From a virus, in IMG/VR virus record IMGVR_UViG_2124908035_000006, positions 1 to 25,693 of that record: a DNA stretch of 25,693 bases; one strand, 5' to 3'. The notes beneath the pieces were generated by a model. The model was not told the origin of the DNA. It made no database searches and saw only the letters and a program-made list of their open reading frames with translations. A program made the position numbers and the translations under genes. Shown here piece by piece: positions 8,142-25,201 of the stretch (the first letter of the stretch is position 1; every line of letters begins with the position of its first letter).

Positions 8142-9890
8142 TTAATTTATCCCCATTTTATTGGCGTGAGAAAACACCATGCTTACAAACCTGTCCGCCG
8201 TCTGCCTTGACCGTAATTGCTGCGTAGCGGCCTCAAGGACGTTACCATTGGCATCATGGATATGGATGTGTACCTCGCCGCCCGATCCCCCTCCTGTTGC
8301 AGCTGTTTGGCCTGCCGTTTGAACCTGTGATCCGCGAGGAAGCATAACCCGCTCCGGTCCCCGCTCCCCGACCATTGCCATTCCCCCAGAAGAATAGGGT
8401 GTACCGACCGCAAATGAATTTATAGCGCCTTTAGCCGCTTCGCCAAGAGCCGTAATTCCAGCAGCTTCAGCCGCTCCAACAACAAGGCCCCAATATCCCT
8501 CAGTTACGACATTATGCAAAGTATTTGCGGCAATGGCGGCAATTTCTTCCTTTTCAAGAAAATCAACCGTCATTACCAAAACATCTTTCATAGCCTGCTT
8601 CATGTCAACTTTTCCCTTGGCAAGCCCTGCCCCTATATCACTGCCGAACTTTTCACCAAGTTCCATTGCATAACCAGTCATGATTTCATTGTGTTTTTTC
8701 TGCTCTTCCTGTTCTTTTTTATGCAGCTCTTCAATTCGTTTATCGTTTTCCTCTGCCCCTTTATAAATAGCCTTCCATTTATCTGCTTCGGTTTTATAAC
8801 CCATATCGTCAAGTTCTTCTTTTTTCTTTTCCTTGGCTTCTAAATCTTTATATTGAGTTTCGGCATCATCATGTATAAGTTTTAAAAACTGCTTGTCAGC
8901 TTCTTTTTGATTTTGAAGAGCTTCTTTGGCTTTTCGTTCTGCTTCTTTCTGTTTTTCCTTTTTTAACGGATCGATATTAAATGTTTTGTTTTTTCTCATA
9001 TTATCAACAGACGCGTCATAACGAGAATCTTCTAAATCTGTTTTCTGTTGTTCAGCTGCTCTTTTCTTTTCCTCGCCTATCATTTTTTCATATTCACCAA
9101 CAATTTTCAATTGTAATTCATAATTGTCTTTAAGTTCTTCTCTTTGGCTATAATACATTCCATTTTCATAATCTTCTATAAACTTTTTGCGCTCTTCGAT
9201 TTCTTGCATTTCTCTCACGCTTTTGTTTCCAAATAACGAAATCCCCATAGCGCGTTTTGTTTTTTCAATAGAAAACGTCAACCTATCAAACCAGTTTTTA
9301 CTCTCCTCTACGGCTTCAGCCTGTCCGTGAAAATGTTTATTTAAAATGTTGGTTATTGAATCCAATCTTTCCGAACTCTCAGCAGCTCCATCTAAATGAC
9401 CTGCAAGCCCACGTACCGACCCCTTCGTTGTTTCAATAGCTATTGAAACAAGTTTTGTAGCGGTTAATAAATCTTTACCTGTTGCATTTGCATAATCAAT
9501 GGTTGCAGAAGTTATCTTTTTTATTCTATCTTCATCTTGAGTGTAAAGAGAGAGTCTTTGTTGAACAGTTAATATTTCTTTTTCATCAATTTTATATTTA
9601 TTACTTAAAGTTGCGGCTTGTTCGTTAAGAGCAATAGAGGTATAACCAAGCGATTCTTTTAATTGATTTTCAACCTGGTTCCATTGCTTCCCGGCTTCAA
9701 TTAAATCTTTTATCTGTCCACTTATTGCGGTTGCACCTATACCTATGCCAATGCCAAGGCCGAACTTTGATGCAACATTATTTATATAGTCGAGCTGCTT
9801 CCCAAAAGCCCCCATTTGCGTTTGAACACCAGTAAGCTTCTGGGTAAAATCATCGACCAGGGAAAGAGTAACTTTTAGATCATTGCCCAT
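8142..9890 (-). CDS. Tail tape measure protein, 582 aa
   Basis: The N-terminal third has a hydrophobic glycine segment (about residues 44-61, FGLGIGIGIGATAISGQ). A long Lys/Glu-rich coiled-coil follows (about 225-425), with many EKKK and KEKEE-type stretches. The C-terminal part is Ala-rich and hydrophobic (about 445-495), ending in a GTPYSSGG...GERGPERVMLP segment (about 499-519), a very common mark of phage tape measures. At roughly 0.15 nm per residue it would set a tail of about 87 nm, which is short. Role: fixes tail length, occupies the tube lumen, and may help DNA entry. The start ATG lies inside the last codons of the upstream GT frame (ATGGGCAATGA), so the two are translationally coupled; no strong Shine-Dalgarno is present. 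Confidence 0.9.
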   Translation of the reverse strand: MGNDLKVTLSLVDDFTQKLTGVQTQMGAFGKQLDYINNVASKFGLGIGIGIGATAISGQIKDLIEAGKQWNQVENQLKESLGYTSIALNEQAATLSNKYKIDEKEILTVQQRLSLYTQDEDRIKKITSATIDYANATGKDLLTATKLVSIAIETTKGSVRGLAGHLDGAAESSERLDSITNILNKHFHGQAEAVEESKNWFDRLTFSIEKTKRAMGISLFGNKSVREMQEIEERKKFIEDYENGMYYSQREELKDNYELQLKIVGEYEKMIGEEKKRAAEQQKTDLEDSRYDASVDNMRKNKTFNIDPLKKEKQKEAERKAKEALQNQKEADKQFLKLIHDDAETQYKDLEAKEKKKEELDDMGYKTEADKWKAIYKGAEENDKRIEELHKKEQEEQKKHNEIMTGYAMELGEKFGSDIGAGLAKGKVDMKQAMKDVLVMTVDFLEKEEIAAIAANTLHNVVTEGYWGLVVGAAEAAGITALGEAAKGAINSFAVGTPYSSGGMAMVGERGPERVMLPRGSQVQTAGQTAATGGGSGGEVHIHIHDANGNVLEAATQQLRSRQTADRFVSMVFSHANKMGIN

Positions 9891-10284
9891 TGTTATTCTG
9901 CTTTGCTTCTATTTGTTTGTAAAGATTCGACCACAGTAAAAATAAACTCAAAAGCGTCTTCGGCTGATATAGTCGAGGCCGTCCATCTGGGAACGTCTCC
10001 GGCAATCCGGTTTTCCTGTAAATGTGAAAGTATGGGAGTAAGAGAAAAACGTCGGCAGTAATGATAGCCCTCGGACATCGTTTTAATGGTATCTCGTTCT
10101 TGCCCTTGCAGTACGTGCATTTTTTGTTTTCCCCTCCGCAAATGGGACATTCAAAAACGAGTTGAGGGCTTCGGGTAAAGGCCTTGCACCCTTTTTGTTT
10201 TTTATCTTTCCAGTTGCAATTCCGGCAATCGTATTTAGCGGCGGTCGATGTTGGAAAGAAAAAAAGCCACGCCGCCGCAATTAT
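9880..10284 (-). CDS. Tail chaperone T domain, made by -1 frameshift (GT)
   Basis: Reading on in the -1 frame from the A AAA AAA site gives 134 residues with no stop until TGA at 9880-9882, which overlaps the tape-measure start. Appended to the 116 residues of G this makes a 250-aa GT protein. The frame has no Met and no GTG codon, so it can hardly be translated alone. It carries eight Cys (GT numbering 136, 139, 149, 162, 165, 172, 175, 186), including three CxxC pairs, as in YDCRNCNW and CPICGG...CTYC. These look like two zinc-binding sites. The rest is basic and then helical. In siphoviruses GT binds the tape measure and tail-tube subunits during assembly and is absent from the virion. The competing 85-aa frame at 9893-10150 lacks a ribosome site and conserved-looking content. 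Confidence 0.8.
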   Translation of the reverse strand: MIAAAWLFFFPTSTAAKYDCRNCNWKDKKQKGCKAFTRSPQLVFECPICGGENKKCTYCKGKNEIPLKRCPRAIITADVFLLLPYFHIYRKTGLPETFPDGRPRLYQPKTLLSLFLLWSNLYKQIEAKQNNNGQ

Positions 10285-10631
10285 TTTTTTAGGTCATCAA
10301 CCTGAAATTCTTTTTGTTCTTTCCACCATTTTAAAATGTCGAGCTTTAAACTTCCATTCATCAACTTTGATGGATTGCTCTTTGGAAATTCAGGGAGCTT
10401 TACTTTCTTGCTTGACCAGCAGACAAGGATAATGTCGATCTGACCATTTATCATGTCCCTGAAAATCTTGTGGGTAATGGTCTTTCCTTCAAGCTTCTCG
10501 TCCTTAAAGGTATCGAGAAAGTCGAGCAACTTTATTTCCACCTCGTCGGTAGCCTGTCGAAAGGTGTACTCAACTCCGGTTTCCTTATCCAGGTATTTTA
10601 TGTTTTCCCCTGTAAACGGAATACTTCCCAC
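10281..10631 (-). CDS. Tail assembly chaperone G-like protein, 116 aa
   Basis: Lies between the tail-tube gene and the tape measure, the standard site of the G/GT chaperone. It starts at GTG (10629-10631) with AGGGGG five bases upstream. It is a small, mainly helical, charged protein (FRQATDEVEIKLLDFLDTF, about residues 25-43) and ends DDLKK. Its last sense codons are CTA AAA AAA before TAA: the slippery heptamer A AAA AAA. Most ribosomes would stop here and give G; a minority would shift to GT. No sequence motif beyond this identifies it, but the frameshift and gene order make the call strong. Confidence 0.8.
   Translation of the reverse strand: MGSIPFTGENIKYLDKETGVEYTFRQATDEVEIKLLDFLDTFKDEKLEGKTITHKIFRDMINGQIDIILVCWSSKKVKLPEFPKSNPSKLMNGSLKLDILKWWKEQKEFQVDDLKK
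10284..10290 (-). promoter_or_regulatory. -1 frameshift slippery heptamer A AAA AAA
   Basis: Minus-strand CTA AAA AAA TAA in the G frame. Both P- and A-site Lys codons can re-pair perfectly after slipping one base back, and the stop codon directly follows, which favours pausing. No obvious strong downstream hairpin was found by eye, though the following GC-rich GCGGCGGCG stretch could contribute. Confidence 0.8.
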
Positions 10632-10640
10632 AATTCCCCC

Positions 10641-11612
10641 TTATGAGTTTATGCCTACAACAAAATTATTCTGGTTAAGTTGCCCTTTAATGTCAAAAGC
10701 GGTTATCCCGTTTTCGTCCGCTTTTTTGCGTTCGGTTATTTGGAAGTAGGTACCGGCCAGCCGAATTGCCTTTGTTCCGGTTCCCCATGTCACCGATATT
10801 ACTCCTTCGGTATCGTTCTGCAAGGCCGTCAATGGGTCAACGGTAGCATGTTTTACCGCATAGCATTTAAGGCTTACTTTTATTTTGCGGTCCGTTATAT
10901 CGCTCTGACCAGCACCCCCGGTTTGCGAAACGTCATTGCGATTGACCACGACCTCGCCGCCGTCAAACTCAAACGATGTCACAGAATAAACCGCACTGCC
11001 TAAAACCAGAACCGTAGCGCCCTTAAAAGCGAAGGGATTTTCCCGAACCTTTGAGTTGGTAACATCAGGTTGCGTCGCATCTATTTCACTGTAAAAAGCG
11101 CCGTCAAGAGAAAAGTCGATTGTGGGCACCTTGTTCGCTTCCATTGCAATTTTGAAACTGCCCTTGAGATTATAATATCGGGACCGGAGAGACGCCCCGC
11201 TTGCCAGATCGCCGGAATAATGGTCAAGCACTCCCGACAATGTAGGTGTACTCGCCGGAGACAATAACCAATTGCTTGGCACGGTCCCTGCCGTGGTCGT
11301 AGCAAGTGAGTAATCACACGACCCCTGCATTACCTTTGCCCACTGTGGAAGCACCAGGCCGCCCCCGCTTGCCGGGTTCATGAGAAATTTCAGGCTCCCT
11401 TTGGCCCCAAATTTTCCAACCACTGCCGAATACTGGTCGAATCCAGCGGCAACAAGCTCGACCGGTTCCATCGCTATTTCATGGTCAATGGTCGATCCCT
11501 TGGCAATCTGAATTAAATCGGCAGCGGCCAGCGTTGCGGCCCCAGCGTCGGAATAAGCAAAGTTGTTTGAACTCTGCTGTTGATAAAGGAATAGTTCCTT
11601 TAATATGTGCAT
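10641..11612 (-). CDS. Major tail (tube) protein, 323 aa
   Basis: A 323-aa protein rich in alternating strand patterns and Gly/Ser/Thr. Examples are VTSFEFDGGEVVVNRNDVSQ (about residues 209-228), followed by the tube-type segment ITDRKIKVSLKCYAVKH. Length and position, upstream of the G/GT frameshift and tape measure and downstream of the tail-completion gene, are those of the siphoviral tail-tube protein. The SFEFDGG and ITERK-type strands are typical of tube proteins that build a hexameric beta-barrel ring. The start ATG has AGGGGG six bases upstream. It should be one of the most abundant virion proteins. Confidence 0.8.
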   Translation of the reverse strand: MHILKELFLYQQQSSNNFAYSDAGAATLAAADLIQIAKGSTIDHEIAMEPVELVAAGFDQYSAVVGKFGAKGSLKFLMNPASGGGLVLPQWAKVMQGSCDYSLATTTAGTVPSNWLLSPASTPTLSGVLDHYSGDLASGASLRSRYYNLKGSFKIAMEANKVPTIDFSLDGAFYSEIDATQPDVTNSKVRENPFAFKGATVLVLGSAVYSVTSFEFDGGEVVVNRNDVSQTGGAGQSDITDRKIKVSLKCYAVKHATVDPLTALQNDTEGVISVTWGTGTKAIRLAGTYFQITERKKADENGITAFDIKGQLNQNNFVVGINS

Positions 11613-13929: not shown

Positions 13930-16059
13930 TTATGCGCCGATGTTCTTGACGATTCCGCGCCAATCGCTGGAACCGATTACGAAAATCACCATCAGATCCC
14001 ACACGATACCGCGAGCCTGCCCGATTTCCGAGGGAGCCGAACGAATCTGAGGCGCTTCCTCACCGGCCAGTGTCGCCAAAACGAGATGCTGCGCGACGTT
14101 CGAATCCGCTGCCGCATACCATACCGTGGTCGAATACTCATCCAGATACGGCGTGGTGATGAGCTGTATGCCCATACTTGCGTACGGGTTGATAATCGCA
14201 GGGTTGGCGTTTGCCGTACTGCCGTCAGCGGCCAGATAAGCCGCGGGGGAACCGAGAACCTTCTGCCATTCGGTCCATTTCGTTTCACCGGTAATGATGA
14301 ATTTTATCGGTGCGAGCGTGTACTGCGTTTTGCTCGTCTTATCCGGGGCCAGAAGTTTGATCGACCGGAGGAGCTTCCGCGCTTCCGAAAGTGAAGCCGT
14401 CGAAGGCGCCGCTGTAGTTCCGTAGTTGGCGTGAGTTGACAAATCAAACATTGCAATACTGTCCTCATTCATCGTCGGACCGACCGACCCCGAACCAGTG
14501 CCTTCGGTATTGCCGCGATAGAGGTAGTTATACGTGGTCCGCTCTTTCTTACGGGCAACCGCGCCGCCGAGGGCCGCAGGTATCCGGGAGAAAGCATTCT
14601 TGTCATCGTTGACAAGGGCCTCAAACGAGAGGCTGTACGCCTTCATGTATTTGTAGAGCGTGATGAGTTCGGCCTTGTCGCTGAACCGGCCCCATTCCGG
14701 GTTTTTTCCTTCGGGCACCCAGTCAATGTCTGAGAAATTGCTCAGATTGACAAGCTTGTTCTGCTTGAAATCGTTGAGAGGCTGCTTCCCAACCCACTTG
14801 TCGTACGTGGTCGGAATTTCCTCGTAGCCTTTCATGAGGAATTTATTGACGGCGGCTGCAAGAATGTACGCGAAATCGCCAGTAGCCTGGGCAACCGTAC
14901 CACGGCCAAACTCGCCGGGGTTCATTACCATGCGAGCAATCTCAACATTGTTGAGGTACGGCGCATTGCGAACGCCTGCCCGCTCAAGGCATTTCTTCGC
15001 CATCGTGATCGCCGAGCCGTCTCGAAAATCCGACTTCTCAACATCGGCAACCGTCTTGTCGTCGAGGCGTTTGCGGTTCGTCGCGTCCTGAAAACCGTTT
15101 CGCACCAGCATGCCGTTGAGGGCCGCATCGCGGAATTTGTCGGTTTCGTCAAGAGTGACGTTCGGGCCTTCGCTTCCCGGCTTCTTGGCTTCTTTCAAAA
15201 GCCGCTGTGCTTCAACGATCAGTTTCCTGGTCGCTTCCGCTGCCGGTACGCCTTTCATTATCAGCTCCCGATAAAACTCTTCGGGGATGTTCATTTCACG
15301 GGCCGCGCCTTCAATTTCTTGGCTTCTTGCGCGTTCGGCTTCGGCACCTTCTTTTGCCGCCGCCGCCCTGATTTCGACCACGTTCACTTTTTCAGCGGAC
15401 GCGGGGTTTTCCTGCTGGACATTTTTTTCATCCGGCATAATACGCTCCTTATTTTGAGGTTGATTATTATCCAAACGAGCGTTGCGGAATTTGGCCCGCG
15501 CGTCCGCTCCTATTGGCGTTGTAGATACTTCAAACGGATACCACGTCGTGCGTATCGCGCAGCGTTGGTCCGTGTTATTGACATATTCTTTACCCCTGAT
15601 ATTGCACCGGGAACCTGGTTCGAGCCATTGCGTGGCCTTGGCGTCGGTCTTATAGCCCACCGACAGGTCGGTCAAATGACCCTCTCGGGCGAGCGTGGCA
15701 ACATCCCCGGCAGTTGAGGAAAAGTAAACATCCCCCTCAGCAGTCCCGTTTCCCATGTCGGTTATGTTCCGCACCGAACCCTTAACGCTTGCGCTGCCAT
15801 TCCAGCGACTATGATTATCAAGTAGGGGAACCTGTCGATTATCAGGAGTTTTCATTCCGTCCATCGTAAGAATTTCGCGGATTATTTCATCGTTCTGCCA
15901 ATCGTAAACTTCAACAGGAGCATCGGAAGAAACAATCGCCCTGACTTTGCGTTGAACTACGTTTCCCTTGTCGTCTTTTTCTTCGGTATATGTTCCCGGA
16001 GTAAATGTCCGGTAAAATCCTTCGGGTTTCTCAACCGCTTCGTTGTTATTTATTGGCAT
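13930..16059 (-). CDS. Prohead protease / major capsid protein fusion, 709 aa
   Basis: Start chosen at ATG 16057-16059 because a near-perfect AAGGAGGT lies just before it; the 12 codons upstream have no such site. Residues 1-190 read as a U35/S78-type prohead protease: VPLLDNHSR with candidate catalytic His83, GDVYFS (about 109-114), LTDLSVGYKTD with Ser133, and EVSTTPIGAD (about 177-186). Residues about 208-300 are charged and helical, like the HK97 scaffold or delta domain. The rest is an HK97-fold capsid protein, for example FSDIDWVPEGKNPEWG, YTLAPIKFIITGETKW and the end IVWDLMVIFVIGSSDWRGIV. NCBI already recognises protease/capsid fusions of this kind. An internal start at 15438 could supply capsid protein alone. 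Confidence 0.88.
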   Translation of the reverse strand: MPINNNEAVEKPEGFYRTFTPGTYTEEKDDKGNVVQRKVRAIVSSDAPVEVYDWQNDEIIREILTMDGMKTPDNRQVPLLDNHSRWNGSASVKGSVRNITDMGNGTAEGDVYFSSTAGDVATLAREGHLTDLSVGYKTDAKATQWLEPGSRCNIRGKEYVNNTDQRCAIRTTWYPFEVSTTPIGADARAKFRNARLDNNQPQNKERIMPDEKNVQQENPASAEKVNVVEIRAAAAKEGAEAERARSQEIEGAAREMNIPEEFYRELIMKGVPAAEATRKLIVEAQRLLKEAKKPGSEGPNVTLDETDKFRDAALNGMLVRNGFQDATNRKRLDDKTVADVEKSDFRDGSAITMAKKCLERAGVRNAPYLNNVEIARMVMNPGEFGRGTVAQATGDFAYILAAAVNKFLMKGYEEIPTTYDKWVGKQPLNDFKQNKLVNLSNFSDIDWVPEGKNPEWGRFSDKAELITLYKYMKAYSLSFEALVNDDKNAFSRIPAALGGAVARKKERTTYNYLYRGNTEGTGSGSVGPTMNEDSIAMFDLSTHANYGTTAAPSTASLSEARKLLRSIKLLAPDKTSKTQYTLAPIKFIITGETKWTEWQKVLGSPAAYLAADGSTANANPAIINPYASMGIQLITTPYLDEYSTTVWYAAADSNVAQHLVLATLAGEEAPQIRSAPSEIGQARGIVWDLMVIFVIGSSDWRGIVKNIGA
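15436..15450 (-). promoter_or_regulatory. Internal ribosome site and start inside the protease/capsid gene
   Basis: Minus-strand AAGGAG (15445-15450), a six-base spacer CGTATT, and an in-frame ATG (15436-15438) at residue 208, exactly where the protease part ends and the charged scaffold-like part begins (MPDEKN...). Translation from here would give a 502-aa delta-plus-capsid protein (15438 down to 13930) without protease, so capsid could outnumber protease. Confidence 0.65.
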
Positions 16060-17587
16060 CAGAATTACCTCCTTCTTCGTCAACGCCCGGCGCATTGTCA
16101 GGCGTTTTAAATTTATTTGGCGTTACCGCGACAGGCGCTACAACTGAAATACCGAGCGTGTCTTTGGCTTTCTTTTCTTCTGCCAATGTCGCATAAAGAT
16201 CGTCTTTATTTATGCCTATCATGTCGCAATACATTTCGTCAGTCAACCAGCCAGCATCGCGCTGCTCAATATAGCCCTGCATGTCTTTGAGCGGATCAAC
16301 CCAATCCCACCTATCCGGCGTATGCATGGCGCGACAAAGATTGTACTGGTTTTCCTTAAAATCAAGTATCGATTTACCAGGTATTTGACCGGTAAGAAAA
16401 CACCATTGCACGAATTTATTATAGACGGGTTGACATAGAGAGCGGATAACGAATTGCTGTTTCTTTTTGTAATACCGGCGTTGGTCCTGCGTGATTACCC
16501 GCGCCGAGGAAAAATTAGCACCCGCAAGGTCTGAGGTCATTTCCTGGTACGATATTCCAAAACCGCGAGCTACTTGCCGCAAGTAAAGCTCAATCAATGC
16601 GCCAAGGGTTTCACGAATATTGTCAGCGCTTTGAATAATTTTAGGTTCTTGCCCGCCCTTCCATATCGCTCCCGGAGAAAGAGAAAAATTTCCATCGGCG
16701 TTCGCGTCTTTTTTTGAAAAAGGCTTATTTGTCTCCGGAATCCACAGAGCAATTGCCGCCTGTATACGGGAAGCGATTAATTTATCTTCTTGCAATTGCG
16801 CCAAATCCCAGAGCGTAGTAAGCACCGGAGCGAGCCAGGGAATCCCTATCCATTGCGTGGCATGCCATTTGTCATAGCAGTGGATCATGTTGTTTGCAGG
16901 GAGAGAAAAGAACATCCACGTTACAAGGTCTTGAAAGAAATATTCAAGCGGTTCGCCAAAATCATTTATCTTTACGCCGTTGTAAATCATAGGAACCGAA
17001 GGCATGGCGTAATTGTCATGCGAAAATTCGATATACGATTGATCGATGACCTGAAAAGCAAAAGGAAGCAAGTTGCCTTTCGGGGCCGGGACCATATTTA
17101 AAAACATTCCGCCCGATACGCTTAGGTTGGCAATGTATTTAGCCTGAATTTCATAAAAATTATCATGATTGGGGCGCAAACATTCATCAGCAAACCGCTC
17201 CCAGAGTTTGTCAAGAAGCTTTTCGAGGTCAACCAGTGAATTACCGTTTTTATCTTGTGCTTTGGATCGAGGCTGAATTCCTGTCCCGATTACCTGCGTT
17301 TGCAGCACCCGCACGCATGACCGGGCGTATGGGTCCGTATCGTAGGCCCGTTTTGCCCGAGCAAAGAGCCTCCGGTACTCAAGGCGGTAAATATTCTGAT
17401 CGACAAGGACTGTAGGAGACCAATCGGCACGATTAGCGGATAAATCGGCAGCGGGGTAATAGCGCTCCATTATTTTACCGATTTCGCGGGAAAAATGGGC
17501 GTTAAAACGCGCATCTGGAGGCATTACACCGCGCCGAAACATGCTGAAATTGTCAATTTCCCGCTTAATATTGCCAAAAATACTCAT
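16046..17587 (-). CDS. Lambda-family portal protein, 513 aa
   Basis: Typical of the lambda gpB-type portal: an N-terminal RLEYRRLFARAKRAYDTDPY segment (about residues 67-86), then ARSCVRVLQTQVIGTGIQPR (about 87-106). Both match conserved parts of this family. Central segments WKGGQEPKIIQSADNIRETL and YLRQVARGFGISYQEMTSDL (the latter about 342-361) continue the match. Length is normal. Twelve copies form the ring through which DNA is packaged. It starts at ATG 17585-17587 overlapping the gpW stop (TAATG) and its last 14 bases overlap the capsid start; the ribosome site of the capsid gene lies inside the end of this gene. Confidence 0.92.
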   Translation of the reverse strand: MSIFGNIKREIDNFSMFRRGVMPPDARFNAHFSREIGKIMERYYPAADLSANRADWSPTVLVDQNIYRLEYRRLFARAKRAYDTDPYARSCVRVLQTQVIGTGIQPRSKAQDKNGNSLVDLEKLLDKLWERFADECLRPNHDNFYEIQAKYIANLSVSGGMFLNMVPAPKGNLLPFAFQVIDQSYIEFSHDNYAMPSVPMIYNGVKINDFGEPLEYFFQDLVTWMFFSLPANNMIHCYDKWHATQWIGIPWLAPVLTTLWDLAQLQEDKLIASRIQAAIALWIPETNKPFSKKDANADGNFSLSPGAIWKGGQEPKIIQSADNIRETLGALIELYLRQVARGFGISYQEMTSDLAGANFSSARVITQDQRRYYKKKQQFVIRSLCQPVYNKFVQWCFLTGQIPGKSILDFKENQYNLCRAMHTPDRWDWVDPLKDMQGYIEQRDAGWLTDEMYCDMIGINKDDLYATLAEEKKAKDTLGISVVAPVAVTPNKFKTPDNAPGVDEEGGNSDANK

Positions 17588-22737: not shown

Positions 22738-23005
22738 TTTTATCCTTAGAAAAAAGTTCAAGAGACAGCTGTTCTGCTTTTGCTTTGGTAAGTTTCAGGT
22801 ATTCATCGACCTTTGCACCCATCTTTGCGAAGCATGCCGTTGTCTCTGCCATGATGTATTCCTGTAGGTTCTCGTTAGGTATGCCATCGAAAAGAATAGT
22901 GTCCTTGAATTTGATTTTATATGTGCCATTTGCCTCTTGCGTTGAGGTAAGCTGAACACTGTTGAGCTTCTCGGATAATCTTTCGAGCCTGTTTATTGTT
23001 CTCAT
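22721..23005 (-). CDS. Hypothetical protein, 94 aa
   Basis: 94 aa. A helical N-terminus (TINRLERLSEKLNSVQLTST, about residues 3-22), a middle strand pair (YKIKFKDTILFDGIP) and a helical, Lys-rich C-terminus with VDEYLKLTKAKAEQL (about 66-80). The start ATG overlaps the upstream stop (ATGA), and its own end overlaps the glycosyltransferase start by 17 bases. No family recognised. Confidence 0.65.
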   Translation of the reverse strand: MRTINRLERLSEKLNSVQLTSTQEANGTYKIKFKDTILFDGIPNENLQEYIMAETTACFAKMGAKVDEYLKLTKAKAEQLSLELFSKDKNDSTN

Positions 23006-23622
23006 GATGGAATTTTTTTAAAGGTGATTTCCATTCCTGCCGTCCTAACAATCACACTACCTGATAGTTCACACATTTTCATACACGCTTCAAATAGTTT
23101 TGCACCTGCAAAAACATTTGGATTCTCTACCGTGGTTTGTTCCGTGCATTTACGGATAATCGTGCTTGGAAATTCAGGAGCGTATTGTTTTATCTTTTCT
23201 CCTTCGTTATTGACCCTCTTGAGTTTTATATATTCCCGCTTTGCTTTATATGTTGTCCTGTTTTTTGCATTGTACTTTGCGTTATATTCTGCTTTCCATT
23301 TTTTTTGACAGTCAATGCAGCGGCTCCCTGTGCCTATAAATTCTTTCTGACAATCAGGTTCAACACATATTCTTTTCTCTGGCATTTTCTTCTCCTTTGA
23401 AATACCTATTGTGATTAAACCACATTTTCCTTTAGCAATATCAGCATCAGCAATCCCAACCACGCCAAAATTTGAATCTTCTTGTATTTTTTCAGAAATC
23501 GGATCAAATCTTTTCTTATGTGGGGCTATCGCGCATTGGGTGCAAATGACTTGCCCTGCGAACATTGGCCGAAATGGTTTCTTGCATTTACCCTCACATA
23601 TTTTCATACCAGATACGTTCAT
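23002..23622 (-). CDS. Protein with two CxxC clusters, 206 aa
   Basis: Start chosen at ATG 23620-23622 (MNVSGMK...), with AGGAG seven bases upstream. A TTG at 23704-23706 would add 28 residues behind a weaker GGAG and cannot be excluded. Two zinc-ribbon-like clusters are seen: CEGKCKKPF...VICTQC (about residues 9-30) and CVEPDCQKEF...SRCIDCQKKW (about 85-105 from this start). A basic, Asn-rich helical segment follows (KAEYNAKYNAKNRTTYKAKR) and a plain C-terminus. The second cluster suggests a link to HNH-type or recombination-associated ribbons, but no catalytic His is seen. It lies in the SSB-side early region, so a nucleic-acid or transcription role is possible. Confidence 0.65.
   Translation of the reverse strand: MNVSGMKICEGKCKKPFRPMFAGQVICTQCAIAPHKKRFDPISEKIQEDSNFGVVGIADADIAKGKCGLITIGISKEKKMPEKRICVEPDCQKEFIGTGSRCIDCQKKWKAEYNAKYNAKNRTTYKAKREYIKLKRVNNEGEKIKQYAPEFPSTIIRKCTEQTTVENPNVFAGAKLFEACMKMCELSGSVIVRTAGMEITFKKIPS
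23383..23398 (-). promoter_or_regulatory. Internal ribosome site in the CxxC gene
   Basis: Minus-strand AAAGGAG followed after six bases by in-frame ATG 23383-23385 (MPEKRICVEPDC...). It is as strong as the ribosome sites of the true genes here. It could yield a 127-aa product carrying only the second CxxC cluster, or mark an ancient fusion of two genes. Confidence 0.45.
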
Positions 23623-23731
23623 GGTTCTACTCCTGTACACTTCAAGGTTTTTAAATCCTCGGCACGATTCGTCTTCTGCTTCTAAGGTGAATAATTTACC
23701 GGCCAATTGTCAACTCCATATTTTTATCTCC

Positions 23732-24194: not shown

Positions 24195-24374
24195 TTACTC
24201 GCTTTCTGAGAAATCTCTAAGTTCCTTCATAAGTTCAGGGGATATGGATTTACTGTCTTCAATTTGTGCTACCGTCATGCTTACAATTACCCGCGCTCGC
24301 GTCGCCTGCATTTCCAGGCGCTTAATACGCTCGGCAATAGTGAGTTCAACAGCGTTTTGGGATACGTCGTCCAT
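24195..24374 (-). CDS. Small acidic protein, 59 aa
   Basis: ATG at 24372-24374 overlaps the stop of the ParB-like gene (TAATG), and the frame ends at 24195-24197, four bases before ssb starts. It reads MDDVSQNAVELTIAERIKRL, then helix and charged residues to ...ELRDFSESE. Mostly helical with an acidic end, no motif recognised. Its exact fit between two genes and coupled start support a real gene; it is too short for usual length cut-offs. Confidence 0.6.
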   Translation of the reverse strand: MDDVSQNAVELTIAERIKRLEMQATRARVIVSMTVAQIEDSKSISPELMKELRDFSESE

Positions 24375-25201
24375 TATTGCACCAGCACCGCGATAAATGG
24401 GGGGTCGATTTGTTCGATGCGAATCGTGATGTTGCCTTTCTTGTGCGGCACGTCCACGGCATTCTCAAATCCACGCGCTCTCAATCCATCCGCAATGATG
24501 CCCGCGTCAACCCGTGGAGCCTCCGCGGGCTTCTCGTGGGCCTTGCGTTCGGCTTTGGCTTCGTCCACGTCTTTGCCGGTGACCTTCTGCCCCATATCGG
24601 CTTTAAGAAGGGCGGTCTGCTTGTCCTGCTCATCGGCAGTCCTGAGCTTCTTTGCAGTTGCCGGTTTTATCTTTCCGGCGCCTACTGCGGCTTTAATCGC
24701 CTCCGGATCAGCGGCCAGGGCCAGGCAGTCGGCTACCCACGTTTTGCTTTTATGGGACTCCGCTGCCATCTTAGCGAGGCTCCACCCTGCCTTCTGTAGG
24801 CGCTGAAAACCAATTCCGCATTCAAGTTGCGTGAAAGGCTTTCCATCGTTCTTCTGGAATTGGAGCAACACGCGGGTTTCTTCCGTGGTCCCGGCAGGCT
24901 CGTTAATGCACTTAGCCTCATCGATTGAGGCATCCAACTTTTCATTGGCGTAGATCATCGCCATGAAGCGACGACATCCATTGGTGATGTACGCCACCTC
25001 TTCTCCGCCCACCTTGGCAATGCGAACCGTCATTGGCTCCTGTTGGCCCTTCTCAGCTATCGACCGGGCAAGTTCAGAAATTTTGTACTGCGAGTTGTCG
25101 AATTCCAGGCGTGATAAATCTGCCGGAGGGATGCGTAGTTTTTTGAGAGGAATGCGGAATATGTCTCCGCCTCGACCGAGTGATAAATCTTTGATACCCA
25201 T
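24374..25201 (-). CDS. ParB-like DNA-binding protein, 275 aa
   Basis: The N-terminal half has the ParB/Srx signature: FRIPLKKLRIPPADL (about 15-29), then ISELARSIAEKGQQEPMTVR (about 41-60) and AYITNGCRRFMAMIYA (about 69-84), where GCRR replaces the GERR box of ParB proteins. A central helical segment with GWSLAKMAAESHKSKTWVAD (about 139-158) fits the helix-turn-helix that binds parS, followed by a Lys/Glu-rich linker and a C-terminal domain. No ParA-like gene is nearby. In phages, ParB-like genes sit in early or replication regions with roles in partition, regulation or as nucleases; this sequence cannot choose. It starts with AAAGGAT eight bases upstream, behind a good promoter. Confidence 0.8.
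   Translation of the reverse strand: MGIKDLSLGRGGDIFRIPLKKLRIPPADLSRLEFDNSQYKISELARSIAEKGQQEPMTVRIAKVGGEEVAYITNGCRRFMAMIYANEKLDASIDEAKCINEPAGTTEETRVLLQFQKNDGKPFTQLECGIGFQRLQKAGWSLAKMAAESHKSKTWVADCLALAADPEAIKAAVGAGKIKPATAKKLRTADEQDKQTALLKADMGQKVTGKDVDEAKAERKAHEKPAEAPRVDAGIIADGLRARGFENAVDVPHKKGNITIRIEQIDPPFIAVLVQ

Follow-up and report, generated by a model that had tools for sequence, protein, structure and literature searches.

Two overlapping reading frames, G and T, lie between the tail tube and tape measure genes in a 25.7 kb stretch of a virus record (analysed whole and hereafter called the window), the genes of which are on the minus strand. They very probably constitute a tail assembly chaperone pair of the G/GT type of a lambda-like long-tailed phage, in which a -1 slip would make GT and the cysteines of the T part would likely hold zinc. 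The frameshift arrangement is ordinary and long known; what is new is only the type of T domain, which is rich in cysteine.

Two overlapping frames between the tube and tape measure genes

The order of genes at this locus, namely tube protein, G, T and tape measure, is the order found in lambda. The tail tube protein, also called the major tail protein, is encoded upstream of G (10641-11612, minus strand) and matches phrog_290 (tail, E 1.4e-7), and the tape measure protein (8142-9890, minus strand) matches phrog_19914 (tail length tape measure, E 1.7e-8). The head module of the window is likewise of lambda type, with a GpA terminase, a portal of the lambda family and a 721 aa protein carrying Phage_capsid_4. 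This last protein is encoded by a single frame at 13930-16095, has its capsid match at residues 390-718 with a long N-terminal part ahead of it, and is probably a protease-capsid fusion.

G (10284-10631, minus strand; 116 aa) was assigned from its homologues and from its place between the major tail protein and the tape measure. It starts with a GTG at 10631, has a Shine-Dalgarno sequence (AAGGGGG) ahead of the start, and closes with the codons GAT GAC CTA AAA AAA and a TAA stop at 10283-10281. The first-pass annotation had placed a perfect A AAA AAA slippery site directly ahead of this stop, and the minus strand indeed reads CTA AAA AAA TAA at the junction (...GATGACCTAAAAAAATAATTGCGG...). 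The heptamer, at 10290-10284, fills the sole overlap of the G and T frames: the -1 frame opens three codons ahead of the junction, shortly after a stop, and its translation through the junction is P-K-K-I-I. An in-phase heptamer of this kind is not by itself rare, as there are 15 A AAA AAN heptamers in the 7,670 codons of the window genes (about one per 511 codons); it is the placement in the only overlap between the two frames that sets this site apart.

Downstream of the heptamer, the T frame (10284 to 9883, minus strand) is free of stops for 134 codons, closing with a TGA at 9882-9880 that is overlapped by the tape measure gene, which starts with an ATG at 9890. Inspection of the frame bears out the earlier statement that it stays open as far as the tape measure start and holds neither an ATG nor a GTG; TTG, the only common start codon present, occurs at residues 94 and 112, past the cysteine region. 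The length of 250 aa proposed for GT also holds (116 + 134). For comparison, we collected 936 off-frame runs from 18 other genes of the window, the longest of which has 126 codons, so that none reaches 134. A third frame, the +1 frame, holds an 85 aa ORF (10150-9893) overlapping T; it was rejected as a candidate gene, having no family match and lying where selection between the window and the related contig L003 sits in the T frame and in neither of the other two.

Outside the structural modules, the protein encoded at 23002-23706 is 234 aa long, contains several CxxC motifs and has a weak match to an HNH endonuclease family (phrog_144, E 0.003); its gene adjoins an SSB-like gene. The window also encodes a ParB-like partition protein (24374-25201; phrog_1033, E 2.5e-25), which may serve to maintain the phage as a plasmid or may act as a regulator of the ParB type.

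Conservation of the slip site and of the T frame

Scans of IMG/VR with T and with the terminase recovered one near-identical contig (2140918023_000014) and four distinct relatives: L003 (3300036985_004199; T 72% identical, G 51%), L028 (3300009502_000237; T 53%, G 35%), L056 (3300032046_000372; T 42%) and L011 (3300037796_000153; T 35%, G 24%). Together with the window, these make a conservation set of five distinct phage contigs. All five keep the same layout, in which G ends at a stop, a heptamer stands zero or one codon before that stop, and a -1 T frame with eight cysteines follows. L003 and L028 share the A AAA AAA of the window, reading CTA AAA AAA and then TAA or TAG, and the remaining two have A AAA AAC with the stop one codon later (GCA AAA AAC TCA TAG in L056, CAA AAA AAC TTA TAG in L011). 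Since the heptamer has changed from A AAA AAA to A AAA AAC with its X XXY YYZ phase kept in every member, and both are -1 slip sites, the comparison suggests that slippage is under selection in this family. The DNA around the slip site (window 10292-10255, L003 around 4001) is nearly identical in the two contigs (CCTAAAAAAATAATTGCGGCGGCGTGGCTTT), with G just upstream diverged to 51% protein identity.

Runs of A could also act on RNA polymerase, which might add an A within the A6-A7 run so that some of the mRNAs join G and T in one frame. The window, L003, L028 and L011 do carry a run of seven, and a slip in such a homopolymer would yield a protein differing by no more than a lysine. Transcriptional slippage, however, is as a rule efficient only on runs of about nine or more, longer than those found here; in L056 the run is just six A and then a C, and still a phased A AAA AAC is retained, and conservation of the X XXY YYZ phase in all five contigs likewise disfavors slippage during transcription, which we regard as very unlikely.

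Slippage by the ribosome presupposes that the T frame is translated, and the pattern of substitution points the same way. Between the window and L003, the T frames differ with dN 0.18 and dS 0.92 (dN/dS 0.195), the differences fall at codon positions 1, 2 and 3 in the numbers 22, 23 and 50, and the other two frames hold six to eight stop codons. The first 87 codons of T show a similar distribution between the window and L028 (27, 18 and 56). A dN/dS of about 0.2, together with the bias toward third positions, indicates that the T frame is under purifying selection.

A translated T frame could in principle yield a separate protein and no fusion to G, if ribosomes reinitiated past the G stop or began at an internal or non-standard start. 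Some phages have T annotated as a gene of its own, as with gp16 of TM4, and two of the relatives contain an ATG within T, at residue 17 in L003 and at residue 14 in L028, L003 having in addition an in-frame GTG or TTG further upstream. Against this, T of the window lacks both ATG and GTG, its only TTG codons are those at residues 94 and 112, the members do not have their internal starts in common, and from the junction to the first cysteine no initiation codon is shared by all. An alignment of the five sequences shows the motif I/L-I/V-x-A-A conserved from the junction onward. Because the stretch between the junction and the first cysteine is conserved from the junction itself, use of the T frame appears to start at the slip site, and we consider separate translation of T to be extremely improbable.

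The favored explanation is thus a G/GT-type programmed -1 frameshift, because the layout is kept in five contigs, a stop-free join of G and T in one frame occurs in none of them, and T shows the marks of purifying selection; the long chaperone is almost certainly made by a -1 ribosomal slip. This was the reading of the first-pass annotation, and the heptamer, the conserved frames, the selection on T and the gene order support it well. The two observations that it had named as speaking against a frameshift are not seen: a one-frame join is absent from all relatives, and the -1 frame and its eight cysteines are conserved in them.

A possible stimulator was sought around the heptamer. A GC-rich hairpin (arms GCGGCGG and CCGCCGC; 10238-10278, minus strand), identified as possibly stimulatory by its folding energy, starts 5 nt past the heptamer, a usual spacing for a stimulatory hairpin, and has a predicted energy of -17.3 kcal/mol in the window (z about -2). 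It is stronger in L003 (-21.8 kcal/mol, z about -3.6), weak in L028, where the arms are out of register, and absent from L056 and L011. As a stimulator for the whole family the stem-loop was therefore rejected, being upheld in the window and L003 only, and a search of Rfam at the slip site gave no match. Ahead of the heptamer, at a distance of 6-7 nt, L056 and L011 have a GGAGG-like stretch instead. A stimulator of the Shine-Dalgarno type is known from dnaX, with a longer spacing than in these two contigs.

Tube and decoration proteins of these same two contigs (L011:11760-11859, L011:8780-8900, and upstream of G in L056) end in long serine-rich runs, of the form SSSSSVSS... in L011 and of uninterrupted serine in L056. 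The proteins of the window are without such runs, which are possibly surface tails of variable repeat length.

An eight-cysteine domain in T

The cysteine region of T (10075-10227, minus strand) has the form C20-x2-C23, C33, C46-x2-C49, C56-x2-C59, C70-P-R. These residue positions (20, 23, 33, 46, 49, 56, 59 and 70) confirm the earlier count of eight cysteines, three CxxC pairs among them, with two further cysteines standing singly. None of the eight varies among the five sequences, and neither does the CPR motif that includes the last of them; L028 has one additional cysteine and L011 two. The C-terminal half of T is conserved as P-x-G...R...Q...L...F. In a small set of seven hand-picked phages with their T parts cut in the same way, we counted no cysteine in lambda, HK97, TM4, Loki and Bxb1 and one each in TP901-1 and phiC31.

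Since the same eight cysteines are conserved, they likely bind zinc, and two Cys4 sites would be the simplest reading of eight invariant cysteines in a cytoplasmic protein. The cysteines may alternatively serve without zinc, in disulfides or another metal site, with the frameshift nonetheless real, and no structural model or family match backs a zinc fold. We find this unlikely, if a good deal less so than the alternatives to the frameshift, as three CxxC knuckles (two of them CxxCxG) with eight invariant cysteines are typical of Cys4 zinc sites, and an assembly chaperone works in the reducing cytoplasm.

Searches of T against Pfam, PHROG, NCBIfam and the sequences of the PDB gave no significant match, nor did G match the family libraries, and the T domain is new to the libraries searched. 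The best zinc-finger matches of T were weak, with E 0.27 for the DnaJ central domain (L003) and E near 1 for an HVO_2753-type finger. An AlphaFold2 run on T with four sequences gave a mean pLDDT of 71 for the best of five models and 42-48 for the other four, and a run with five sequences gave 52.6 at best. Both of these low-confidence runs depict the cysteine region as loops and two short strands, followed by a long C-terminal helix. Fold searches of BFVD and the PDB with the first, low-confidence, model found nothing credible; across the profile and fold searches, no known zinc domain was matched significantly. The first-pass annotation had suggested a double zinc ribbon; that fold is left unsupported by the weak library matches, the low-confidence models and the lack of a fold match.

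Beyond the contigs described above, tblastn with T of the window, L011 and L028 found no match in 50,697 phage records. A T profile found none in 395 bacterial genomes of one phylum, a search that was run without a positive control and says little, and weak profile matches elsewhere were dismissed as noise. Scans of GTDB with T found nothing, and those with TerL reached only remote loci, at about 22-35% identity, in which no T could be recognised. A scan for the cysteine motif with a DNA pattern, the second gap of which was too short to catch the family, gave nine matches, all unrelated. In the full-text, open-licence literature, we found no paper describing a cysteine-rich or zinc-binding T of a tail assembly chaperone.

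Relation to known tail chaperones and implications

A conserved frameshift in tail assembly chaperones was reportedly described by Xu, Hendrix and Duda in 2004. The locus resembles gpG/gpGT of lambda in its gene order, its short G with a stop, a -1 slip near the end of G, and a T that is not started independently. Unlike lambda, in which the heptamer is G GGA AAG and T has no cysteine beyond the junction, the window has A AAA AAA and a T with eight. Alignment with hhalign detected no homology of T or G to their lambda counterparts (E 0.83 and 0.38, respectively), as is usual for the G/T group; a review notes that the G and T frames are poorly conserved between phages (PMC5009743). The heptamer of L011 and L056 recurs in gp12/gp13 of Acinetobacter phage Loki, for which the slip site proposed is an AAAAAAC that immediately precedes the stop of the first chaperone frame (PMC5313236), although the T part of Loki lacks cysteine. 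The zinc centre of DnaJ and small two-zinc ribbons share CxxCxG knuckles and eight cysteines with T; T differs in having only three CxxC pairs and two single cysteines and in sitting on a phage tail chaperone, and its match to the DnaJ domain (L003) is not significant.

In lambda, G binds the tape measure and T brings the tube subunits (PMC5009743). By analogy, the best reading is that G would be the main product and GT a minor one: the majority of ribosomes would halt at the TAA to give G (116 aa), and a minority would shift one base backward at A AAA AAA and continue in the T frame to give GT (250 aa). Many copies of G and a few of GT would then coat the tape measure protein, with the T end recruiting tail tube subunits. 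T itself would consist of a cysteine-rich domain followed by a helical tail, its eight invariant cysteines holding two zinc ions and thereby folding the piece that touches the tube protein.

The chances seem to us about even that T represents an undescribed class, a two-zinc module that frameshifting appends to some of the chaperones and that recognises the tube protein, in which case tail assembly in these phages would be zinc-dependent. The frameshift itself is a further well-conserved instance of a common class. The small size and strong divergence of T domains have left their recognition of tube subunits poorly understood, and a compact domain in which metal ligands are conserved would offer a folded, mutable handle on this step. 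T frames that lack annotation in environmental phages can also be sought by the eight-cysteine signature.
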